NCBI GenBank assembly: GCA_014523525.1
Contig: JAATVL010000187.1
Location: forward strand, 1-10,093
Direction: 5' to 3'
From: Nitrososphaerales archaeon TH703
GTDB taxonomy: Archaea; Thermoproteota; Nitrososphaeria; Nitrososphaerales; Nitrososphaeraceae
Length of the DNA stretch: 10,093 bases
Part shown: in pieces, positions 2,855 through 6,601 of the stretch
How positions within the stretch are numbered: position 1 is the stretch's first letter
Layout of the letters: every line of letters starts with the position of its first letter
Notes under the pieces: model-generated
Database searches by the model: none
Told to the model about the DNA's origin: nothing
Seen by the model: only the letters and a program-made list of their open reading frames with translations
Program-made: the position numbers and the translations under genes

Positions 2855-4864
2855 ATGAAAGGCAAAGCTACGGAAATAAGAGTAGATTTTTCTCTTAAAC
2901 GCGAGGTATTCTTCGTAGTAATAGGGGCAATGTTGGGAGCCGTATCCATGCTTATTCCGACTGCATTTGAAGTTGGAATGGGTTTGCCTTATTATGTTAC
3001 ATGGGTAGCATTTGGGCATGTCATAGGAGTGCATTCCTCTAATGCGGCTTTTGCAGGAATAGCAATTCATACAATAACTGCAATTTCAATAGGCATTGTT
3101 ATCGGAGTTTTTCTCTATAAAACTGGAATTCTTAATATAAGTAAGCTTTCAAATGGTTTGCTTTATGGGTTATTCGCCGGTACTGTAGTCCTAATTATTT
3201 TTTTCATACCTGTCTACATGTTAATTTTGCAGCCAGAGATCAATCGTATTCTAACTACAATTATGCCAGAAACCTATGATGAATATGGTACAACATCATC
3301 TCACTATAGCTTCCCCTTGGTAATTGTAAGTTATATTATTATGCATCTTGTTTTTGGGATCATTGTAGGAGTAACTTCATCTGCTTTATCAATTAAATTT
3401 GGCAGCCGTTATAGGTGCACAAAATGTGATATTTCCTTTTCTAGGATCGATTCATACCAAAAACATGTAGAACTTGTTCATGGAGAAAAACCAATTCAAC
3501 AAATAAGGATTTTAATTTTGGGAGGTGGATTTGCAGGAATAGAAGTTTTGCGGCAGCTTCAAAAAGCATTTCAGAATGATATTAGTATTGACATAACACT
3601 GGTAAGCCGGGATAACTTTTTCCTCTTTACACCAATGCTTCCAGAAATATCCTCAGGCATGATAGAGACAAGGCATATAGTAACACCCCTGAGGGCATTT
3701 TGCAATAGAGCAAAATTTTATGAAACCGAGGTAGAGTCGGTTGATCTGGGGAACAAGCAAGTCGTTATAACTCATAGAATAGGAAAGCCTACAAACCCTA
3801 TCGAGTGGCGTAGTCATATATTGAAATACGATTATCTTGTCATATCGTTGGGAAGTGAAACAAACTTCTATGGTATCAGTGAAGCTGCTAAACAAGCATT
3901 CACTCTAAAGAGTCTTGGCGATGCCATAGTCTTACGCAATCATGTCATAAGCATGTTAGAACAGGCCGACATTGAACATGAAGATCTAGACCTTAGGAAA
4001 AGACTGTTGACTTTCGTTGTAGTTGGCGGAGGTTTTTCTGGTGTTGAAATTGTAGGCGAATTGAATGACTTTATATTAGATTCAATAAAATATTTTTACC
4101 ACAATCTGCAAAAATCATATGTAAGAATAATTCTAGTTAACTCGGGTGGAAGGATACTCCCCGAAGTAACAGAGGATCTAGCAGACTTTGCATTACAGAA
4201 GATAAGAAGAAATGGAGTTGAAGTGATTTTAAACACACGAGTGACTGAGATTACCTCAGACAACGTTAAACTAGATCAAGGAACTATTATCAGAACGCAA
4301 ACAATAATATGGGCTGGAGGAGGAAAGCCTCAAACCGTACTTTCGGCTCTTTCCTGTGATCACGACAAATCTGGTAGAATAATGACCAACAATTATCTTG
4401 AAGTTACTGGATTTACTGATAGTGTTATCGCCTTGGGTGACTGCGCTTGTGTCACAGACCCTAATACAGGGAAGCCTTATCCGCCAACTGCTCAACACGC
4501 ATTGAGACAGGGAAAGATTGCTGCAATCAATTTAATCTCTAAGATTAAGGGTAAAGAAAATCATAAAGAACCATTTGATTATAAGACAAAAGGAGTTATG
4601 ACGTTGATAGGAAAGAGAAATGGTGTTGGAATTATACTCGGGCATAAGGTTCATGGATTTGTGGCTTGGTGGTTTTGGCGCTCATACTATCTAGTTAATC
4701 TTCCTACAGTAGAAAAGAAACTGCGAGTTTCGGTGGACTGGATAATTGACTTATTCTTCAAGCGAGACGTAACCAGACTCAAAACACCTACAGAAGAAAT
4801 TGCTTTCAAGCCTAATATTTCCGATCGTTCCTTTACTAGCTCATCAGAATCTATCCAGAAATAG
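2855..4864 (+). CDS. NDH-2-type NAD(P)H:quinone oxidoreductase fused to four membrane spans and a C2H2 zinc finger
   Basis: A 669-residue protein in three parts. Residues 18-180 hold four predicted membrane spans (about 18-38, 65-88, 101-126, 153-179); the charge pattern places both ends in the cytoplasm. Residues 186-209 form a textbook C2H2 zinc finger: Tyr186, Cys188, Cys191, Phe195, Tyr201, His204, His209. From 217 on it is an NDH-2-like flavoprotein: FAD-binding ILGGGFAGIE (221-230), NAD(P)-binding VVGGGFSGVE (389-398), the second FAD contact IALGDCA (525-531) and the quinone-side PPTAQHA (543-549). The C-terminus (about 579-640) carries the aromatic and basic stretch that usually docks such enzymes to the membrane. 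The expected reaction is NAD(P)H oxidation with quinone reduction and no proton pumping. Usual NDH-2 enzymes have 400-450 residues, so the first ~210 are an addition. The flavoprotein call is strong; electron donor, acceptor and finger role are not known. Confidence 0.92.
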   Translation: MKGKATEIRVDFSLKREVFFVVIGAMLGAVSMLIPTAFEVGMGLPYYVTWVAFGHVIGVHSSNAAFAGIAIHTITAISIGIVIGVFLYKTGILNISKLSNGLLYGLFAGTVVLIIFFIPVYMLILQPEINRILTTIMPETYDEYGTTSSHYSFPLVIVSYIIMHLVFGIIVGVTSSALSIKFGSRYRCTKCDISFSRIDSYQKHVELVHGEKPIQQIRILILGGGFAGIEVLRQLQKAFQNDISIDITLVSRDNFFLFTPMLPEISSGMIETRHIVTPLRAFCNRAKFYETEVESVDLGNKQVVITHRIGKPTNPIEWRSHILKYDYLVISLGSETNFYGISEAAKQAFTLKSLGDAIVLRNHVISMLEQADIEHEDLDLRKRLLTFVVVGGGFSGVEIVGELNDFILDSIKYFYHNLQKSYVRIILVNSGGRILPEVTEDLADFALQKIRRNGVEVILNTRVTEITSDNVKLDQGTIIRTQTIIWAGGGKPQTVLSALSCDHDKSGRIMTNNYLEVTGFTDSVIALGDCACVTDPNTGKPYPPTAQHALRQGKIAAINLISKIKGKENHKEPFDYKTKGVMTLIGKRNGVGIILGHKVHGFVAWWFWRSYYLVNLPTVEKKLRVSVDWIIDLFFKRDVTRLKTPTEEIAFKPNISDRSFTSSSESIQK

Positions 4865-5038: not shown

Positions 5039-5572
5039 ATGATGAATAAGACAAAAGGCTTAGGGATACTAATTGTAGCAACATTCCTTTATATAGGATG
5101 GTTGAATCCATTAACTTCCGGACAAATGCACCAAATATTAAAACCTGCTTTAGGTCAGGGCATTGCTTACGCAATTAAGAGCCAACTCGTATCTTATGGT
5201 AGCATGAACACCGCCATCGCAAGTGGAAATAAGAACACCACGACTAGTGATAAAAACTTGCCATCCAATGCACTTCAATTGAGTGCTAACGAGAAGAAGG
5301 GAATCTACACATGGGCCAACAAGGAGGGTACGAATCCAATTCTAAACTTTAAACAAAATGCAGATAATGTCGTACAGTTAAAGAATCCAACTGACTCAGT
5401 ACATCAGCTGATCATAACCTCGGCAGGAAAGCGAGTTGCGTCTAGTGGTGATATAAAACCTGGAAAATCAGGAGAACTCTCATTTGCAAATGTTAACCAA
5501 GGAGAAACTCTAGAATACCATTGTTTGTATCATCCAAGTACGATGAAAGGGACAATAACAATTTCTTCCTAA
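5039..5572 (+). CDS. Membrane-anchored cupredoxin (plastocyanin-like blue copper protein)
   Basis: A 177-residue protein with an N-terminal signal or anchor (residues 6-23, GLGILIVATFLYIG), a low-complexity Ser/Thr/Asn linker (about 60-80) and a C-terminal cupredoxin domain (about 85-177). The type-1 copper ligands are all visible: His122 in DSVHQL, then Cys162, His165 and Met169 in CLYHPSTMKG. Such proteins shuttle electrons outside the membrane and stand in for cytochrome c in ammonia-oxidising archaea. Its place beside an NDH-2-type enzyme fits a respiratory role, but no shared transcript is shown. Either of two adjacent ATGs (5039, 5042) may be used. The cupredoxin call is firm; the redox partner is inferred. 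Confidence 0.94.
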   Translation: MMNKTKGLGILIVATFLYIGWLNPLTSGQMHQILKPALGQGIAYAIKSQLVSYGSMNTAIASGNKNTTTSDKNLPSNALQLSANEKKGIYTWANKEGTNPILNFKQNADNVVQLKNPTDSVHQLIITSAGKRVASSGDIKPGKSGELSFANVNQGETLEYHCLYHPSTMKGTITISS

Positions 5573-5828: not shown

Positions 5829-5885
5829 ATGAAAAATAGACATCAAGACCAGAAAGTTTGAAAAACTCAATTAAGTCTCAGCTAA

Positions 5886-5900
5886 TCTTTATATGTATAA
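5886..5900 (+). promoter_or_regulatory. TATA-like box of the CBS-domain gene
   Basis: CTTTATATGTATAA lies about 30-40 bases before the TTG start at 5928. It predicts transcription from about 5915-5920 and so a very short leader. The match to the archaeal TATA consensus is good. Confidence 0.5.
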
Positions 5901-5927
5901 CAATTAATTCTATTTAGCGTAGACAAT

Positions 5928-6377
5928 TTGACAAAAATAGGTGATTTAATGACTGAAAAACTAGAGACTATTGAGACATCTTTATCTGCCCAAGAAGCAG
6001 CGATGAAAATGCGCGACAGAAATGTAAGTTCACTAGTAGTGATTGACGCTAACAGCAAAACAGTGGGCATAATAACAGAAAGAGATTTAGTAAGAAAGGT
6101 ATGTGTTCATGATGCGAGCAGTAAAGATACCTCAGTACGAGATATAATGTCTGATGCTCTAGTCACAACTGATGCGATATCGGAAGTGGGAGTAGCAGCT
6201 GATATAATGATACAAAATCAAGTCAGACATTTGCTTGTAGTAAAGGATGAAGACATAAACAAACCATTAGGCATAATTACACCTAGTGACTTAGCACGTT
6301 ATTTAAAAGAAAATTTGGATATTGATGATGTAAATGCTACAATAATTAAATCCTTAATAGAGACAGAAAAAGAGTAA
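5928..6377 (+). CDS. Tandem CBS-domain protein (adenosyl-nucleotide sensor)
   Basis: A 149-residue protein made almost wholly of two CBS domains, roughly residues 5-58 and 70-127. Each has the usual opening (KIGDLMT, SVRDIMS), the strand SSLVVID or HLLVVKD, and the closing GIITERDLVRK or GIITPSDLARYL. Paired CBS domains form a Bateman module that binds AMP, ATP, SAM or similar ligands and normally regulates a partner. No catalytic domain is attached, so the partner must be separate. The start is TTG at 5928; the first ATG (5949) would remove KIGDL and break the first strand, so TTG is preferred. The GTG or TTG codons further in are not better. The family is certain; ligand and target are unknown. 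Confidence 0.93.
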   Translation: MTKIGDLMTEKLETIETSLSAQEAAMKMRDRNVSSLVVIDANSKTVGIITERDLVRKVCVHDASSKDTSVRDIMSDALVTTDAISEVGVAADIMIQNQVRHLLVVKDEDINKPLGIITPSDLARYLKENLDIDDVNATIIKSLIETEKE

Positions 6378-6601
6378 GTATATAACCTTGTAAATTAATG
6401 GGCATAATTTAGAAAAATGTAGGCAACTAATAGTATTCAGACCTGAAATAGCGCACCTTATTATAATCAATTTTACTATCAATCTATGTTTAACTAAAAG
6501 CATTATGTGATTAAACCCGTTAGTAACCATTGTTGGTATTTAGAATTTTAAGAATTGATTACACGTTAAGAGAGAATATTATGACTAATTTTGCAAAGTA
6601 G

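Follow-up and report, generated by a model that had tools for sequence, protein, structure and literature searches.

The accessible text of PMC5220320 describes type II NADH dehydrogenase (NDH-2) as a monotopic, single-subunit flavoprotein, and the family study PMC5299459, in its accessible part, recognizes such enzymes by two GxGxxG-like motifs, the second of the form GxGxxGxE, and reports an AQxAxR variant of the quinone-site motif in 15% of 1762 NDH-2s. We analysed a window of 10,093 nucleotides from Nitrososphaerales archaeon TH703, an entire contig of a draft assembly (1.95 Mb, 309 contigs, 88% complete), which holds a gene that shares with known NDH-2s both dinucleotide motifs, the YD and GD pairs, the quinone motif, the C-terminal membrane-association domain and the fold. 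Unlike them, its product adds four N-terminal membrane spans and a C2H2 zinc finger, has Asn at the position of Glu198, and carries AQxAxR and not the commonest AQxAxQ. A precedent for an added small metal- or thiol-bearing module is the set of NDH-2s with EF-hand or CxxC inserts; those, as far as the accessible text of PMC5299459 goes, lie between the GD motif and helix alpha-7, whereas in the window protein the finger stands on the N-terminal side, after TM4 and before the FAD domain. Within the literature collection available to us, our search returned no report joining NDH-2 with a zinc finger in archaea, and none on C2H2 fingers in ammonia-oxidizing archaea.

The gene (2855..4864, + strand) is open through 669 codons plus stop and joins a four-span domain, a C2H2 finger and an NDH-2 flavoprotein. 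The limits of the membrane domain (residues 1-183; 2855..3403, +) come from hydropathy, from the structural model and from its free-standing four-span homologues. Consistent with the original prediction, the hydropathy profile has four spans, at about 12-44, 63-96, 97-130 and 150-183, and the model places helices at 14-38, 64-90, 98-135 and 152-182 with short ones at 44-56 and 138-148. The finger follows (residues 186-209; 3410..3481, +), with putative ligands C188, C191, H204 and H209. A charge bias of six Lys or Arg after TM4 against none in loops 1-2 and 3-4 fits the cytosolic side that had been predicted for it. The remainder comprises a Pyr_redox_2 flavoprotein part with two dinucleotide-binding domains (residues 218-553; 3506..4513, +; 138.8 bits), which contains GxGxxG at 223-228 and GxGxxGxE at 391-398, the quinone-site motif (residues 546-551; 4490..4507, +), and the C-terminal membrane-association domain NDH2_C (residues 579-638; 4589..4768, +; 35.3 bits against a cut-off of 27.7).

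That the flavoprotein would be a complete NDH-2 was borne out, with both Pfam families above their cut-offs and the motifs complete. The core aligns to Ndi1 over residues 203-639 and to C. thermarum NDH-2 over 218-609, and structure comparison places the whole-protein model nearest to Ndi1, mycobacterial NDH-2 and C. thermarum NDH-2. Both GxGxxG-like motifs of the family are present, their residues G223, G225, G228, G391, G393, G396 and E398 being invariant across 22 alignment rows; the C-terminal membrane-interaction extension is supplied by NDH2_C, and the quinone-site motif reads AQHALR, a named variant. Within the 88%-complete assembly, only this gene matches NDH2_C. The four predicted spans and the finger depart from a monotopic enzyme free of fused domains; since the accessible text of PMC5299459 uses the absence of fused domains as a filter on its data set, such domains mark a variant and not a non-member. 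That same exclusion may explain why fusions of this kind have gone unremarked.

The original prediction read Y186, C188, C191, F195, Y201, H204 and H209 as the seven consensus positions of a classical C2H2 finger, and each is filled exactly as claimed. The pattern C-x2-C-x12-H-x3-5-H with its three hydrophobic core positions is satisfied, and the segment scores 19.8 bits against Pfam zf-C2H2, under the curated cut-off of 25.2. All seven positions recur in each of the 120 best homologues listed (79-99% identical where aligned, and named by their sources as Nitrososphaeraceae and Thaumarchaeota MAGs), and a regular-expression recount again gave 120 of 120. Precomputed Pfam annotation marks the finger domain in only one of these 120 (P0069), so standard annotation can easily overlook it. 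Among 400 genomes of the order, 52 matched a profile of the four-span-finger segment (E <= 1e-25); two of them (G028 and G659) have only free-standing four-span proteins, and the remaining 50 hold 53 places of the four-span-finger-NDH-2 type, a count that includes contig-end pieces and the gene of G153, which is divided between two overlapping frames.

The ligand pattern C-x2-C-x12-H-x4-H is kept at 48 of these 53 places, and free loss of the ligands, which would have counted against the finger, was not seen overall. The five exceptions comprise two substituted copies (C191H in L077, the same place as L018, and C191H with H209Q in L221, whose frame ends early), one altered spacing (C-x3-C in L076, the same place as L017), one copy interrupted within the finger (L230) and one finger cut by a contig end (L228). 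Over columns 8-217, conservation is 100% for C188, F195 and H204 and 96% for C191 and H209, whereas most residues between them vary. Conservation of the ligands extends over two families within the order, and full-length members reach down to about 42-43% identity. A chance or vestigial motif that binds no zinc would suit the sub-threshold Pfam score and the degenerate or broken copies, but we find it scarcely credible: 48 of 53 places are canonical down to about 42% protein identity, the model is zinc-finger-like and the spacing is fixed. We rejected a chance motif on the 120 of 120 listed best homologues and the 48 of 53 diverse places that conserve the finger. In the window's genus the gene is present in 4 of 12 listed genomes, all drafts, and for that reason it is either patchy there or partly missed. 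As a separate observation, L221 (in G230) and L230 (in G195, its gene broken in several frames) are apparently second copies in decay, through true decay or assembly error.

At the level of structure, AlphaFold was applied to the whole protein (mean pLDDT 85.4) and to residues 1-218 alone (80.0), and in both cases it predicts a strand pair, near 184-187 and 194-195, followed by a helix at 198-208, the hairpin-plus-helix arrangement of a classical finger at the very segment where the original prediction called for a structural check. With the 1-218 model, Foldseek gave mostly helical noise, but its matches also include the finger domain of Kaiso (E 4.2, probability 0.80; 1.6 A over 29 columns), a finger of BCL6 (E 4.8, probability 0.66; 4.5 A over 32) and, at 41% identity, a chain of 62 residues from the 70S ribosome of P. 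furiosus (E 2.0, probability 0.98; 0.6 A over 27 columns). The output gives no range for the alignments; the region aligned is presumably the finger, and the ribosome chain is presumably a finger protein in its turn. The top PDB sequence matches of the segment are C2H2 fingers as well. A zinc-finger type of fold is thus supported in prediction, the E-values of the Foldseek finger matches being weak, at 2 to 5.

The classical C2H2 zinc finger is usually viewed as a eukaryotic DNA-binding module. Fingers of the Zif268, ZBTB and Kaiso type have the same seven consensus positions and the strand pair and helix predicted here; in contrast to them, the window presents a single finger in a respiratory-type membrane enzyme, with no tandem DNA-binding fingers evident. 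A membrane-tethered finger that binds DNA or RNA could be argued from the nearest PDB sequences, which are DNA-binding fingers, and from an archaeal virus finger that binds DNA (accessible text of PMC3541406). We consider it very improbable, with one finger only, beside a flavoprotein, and with no residue above 50% at helix positions 199, 200 and 202; the likeness to DNA-binding fingers mirrors what has been solved. The finger ends in HGEKP (window 3479-3493, +), which is not kept in more distant members. TGEKP is the linker between tandem eukaryotic fingers, and the likeness, judged from sequence, is probably a coincidence.

To place this architecture among its relatives, we labelled 120 distinct NDH-2 cores, a gathered sample and not a census, by hydropathy and by a finger pattern that also permits His at the second ligand and C-x3-C. 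The four-span-finger-NDH-2 form accounts for 35 cores, all archaeal; 9 have the finger and no fused membrane domain (8 intact archaeal ones and the split gene of G153), a further 7, from bacteria, have a membrane domain and no finger, and 69 have neither. L154, from Ca. Nitrosopumilus salaria, is an example of an NDH-2 that bears the finger and lacks the membrane domain. Because each occurs on NDH-2 without the other, finger and membrane domain are separable additions. On the core tree (a short search with SH-aLRT as its only support measure; of 117 inner branches, 30 are open), every finger-bearing core falls within one archaeal group of 62 rows (support 98), and the bacterial four-span fusions form a separate clade (97). 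Since 18 of the 62 cores in the archaeal group carry no finger, the finger is dispensable for NDH-2 as such. The simplest reading of these sequences, though not a proven one, would be a single gain of the finger in this group and several losses.

The bacterial fusions (L130, L158, L163, L165, L173, L176 and L180, from Chloroflexi, Armatimonadetes, Bacillota and Rubrobacteraceae) likewise join a similar four-span-type N-terminal domain to NDH-2, but the finger that the window protein has is absent in all seven. By hhalign the fused domain matches free-standing four-span proteins at 99.8% over 168 columns, and by profile comparison it matches the bacterial N-termini more weakly, at 94.5% over 138 columns. 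The novelty claimed for the architecture therefore stands in part. Homologues and predicted structures show that the four-span domain, the putative C2H2 finger and the NDH-2 core with NDH2_C make up one conserved archaeal protein; a unique membrane fusion was rejected, a related domain being present on the seven bacterial NDH-2s. In G153 (L094:4499-5914 and 5866-6414, -) a membrane ORF and a finger-NDH-2 ORF lie in overlapping frames, as a true split or a sequencing error. The fusions L089-L093 and L111-L114 are 717-801 codons long, roughly 50-130 residues more than the window protein, with the extra residues apparently mostly inside the NDH-2 part.

The same sample bears on the cofactor. Asn429 (4139..4141, +) aligns with E198 of C. 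thermarum NDH-2, a residue that disfavours NADPH in the accessible text of PMC5220320, where an Agrobacterium NDH-2 is also cited in which a Glu-to-Gln change moves specificity toward NADPH. Position 429 is non-acidic in 35/35 four-span-plus-finger cores (Ser 18, Asn 11, Ala 3, Gln 2, His 1) and in 9/9 finger-only cores (Ser 8, Val 1); it is His in 7/7 bacterial fusions and acidic in 29/69 other cores. N429 predicts use of NADPH or dual use of NAD(P)H. By homology, FAD would accept hydride from cytosolic NAD(P)H in an enzyme that probably prefers or accepts NADPH, and the electrons would be handed to the membrane quinone pool with no pumping. To our knowledge, how NAD(P)H connects to the quinone pool in ammonia-oxidising archaea has no settled answer.

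The position of the finger between its two neighbours is held closely. C188 lies 12 residues beyond S176 of TM4 in 50/50 readable fusions, and the last ligand position and the FAD GxGxxG are separated by 13 residues in 44/50, the six exceptions having 12 (three), 18 (one) and 20 (two). In the finger-bearing cores without a fused membrane domain, the same 13-residue spacing to the FAD motif is found in 9/9; because this distance is kept where the membrane domain is absent, the finger probably belongs with the flavoprotein and not with the membrane domain, and it is with the flavoprotein that it would act. The original prediction had proposed a zinc-controlled hinge, whose flexible form is disfavoured by the near-fixed spacing on both sides: a loose tether would not need it, so a rigid module is preferred, and we favour a rigid coupler or docking face. 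On balance, and with some reserve, we regard the protein as probably a polytopic type II NAD(P)H:quinone oxidoreductase with a zinc-clamped rigid finger module that serves coupling, docking or both. The finger would bind zinc and form a small clamped unit beside the FAD domain and, as spacing and architecture suggest, would fix the flavoprotein relative to TM4, present a docking face, or do both.

Fixed spacing directly at the FAD domain would also accommodate a zinc or redox switch, in which the finger unfolds when it loses zinc, or when copper, nitric oxide or peroxide oxidizes C188 and C191, and so alters electron entry into the quinone pool. By analogy, the EF-hand or CxxC inserts of other NDH-2s are proposed to be regulatory in the accessible text of PMC5299459. 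Spacing and conservation suit a structural role equally well, however, and we think a switch unlikely; a rigid coupling or docking module remains our preferred reading.

The membrane domain has a life outside NDH-2. In the phylum, matches to the first 212 residues (E <= 1e-5) occur in 28 of 398 genomes when fused ones are counted, and among the matches listed most are free-standing ORFs. These archaeal proteins have the same four-helix domain, several with a C-terminal C2H2 finger of their own; unlike the window protein, they are without a flavoprotein domain. Two four-span proteins with no NDH-2 part, L240:1041-1721 (-) and L242:1410-2120 (+), carry one C-terminal C2H2 finger each, and a third, L238:938-1684 (+), carries two terminal fingers and scores above the Pfam zf-C2H2 cut-off. 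A search with L240 found 11 relatives, 7 of which end in a C2H2 finger; among the others, P0124 is without the last His, P0131 has a different Cys/His pattern and two end before the finger. DUF6789 (PF20587) gave no match in the window protein at E <= 1, free-standing four-span relatives score 23.2 and 18.3 against it (cut-off 27.1), and P0124 and P0131 carry PF20587 in precomputed annotation.

Single fingers also recur elsewhere in the source genome. Besides the window gene, 19 other ORFs with the C2H2 pattern lie under PF00096 matches (L189, L191-L206, L209 and L210), 16 of them only 31-101 codons long, and two, L197 and L198, combine CBS domains with a C-terminal finger. The accessible text of a 2013 paper (PMC3541406) calls C2H2 fingers scarce in archaea and reports its virus finger family to be without a homologue in Thaumarchaeota. 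On sequence grounds, the single fingers look like a module reused within the lineage. This recurrence, on the two CBS proteins among others, and that of the four-span-plus-finger combination without NDH-2 would agree with a docking or addressing module, in which a partner protein docks on the finger and the pair is kept at the membrane by the four-span domain. We find this rather doubtful as the main function, as exposed helix positions are variable and no conserved neighbour gene around the window hints at a partner.

These comparisons show an archaeal group that made NDH-2 polytopic, with a predicted classical zinc finger at the joint. Four-span-NDH-2, finger-NDH-2, four-span-finger and four-span proteins alone form a natural comparison set for the role of each part. 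More tentatively, and as an idea we consider unlikely to hold in full, the finger might gate or address a polytopic NADPH:quinone oxidoreductase in ammonia-oxidising archaea and their kin, with the four-span-finger platform reused as membrane zinc-finger adaptors. If the gating or addressing is true, zinc status, thiol oxidation or a docked partner would set electron entry into the quinone pool; if the adaptor reading is true, the four-span-plus-finger proteins without NDH-2 would be an undescribed family.

The neighbourhood was compared across the window and 42 loci, several of them duplicates of a genome already represented, with neighbours listed for the window and 15 loci and six neighbour proteins scanned. 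Over the window and the 42 loci, no neighbour family in five or more loci suggested a function, and the commonest reverse-strand ORF family (30/43 loci) was disregarded, as it overlaps the gene itself. An aminotransferase class I/II gene lies directly upstream on the same strand, within about 50 bases, in L080-L085, L119 and L121, and ArsR-HTH or DoxX genes lie near some of the loci. In the window itself, a secreted-looking cupredoxin-like protein is encoded downstream on the same strand (5039-5572, +; Cupredoxin_1 at 24.1 bits against a cut-off of 27).
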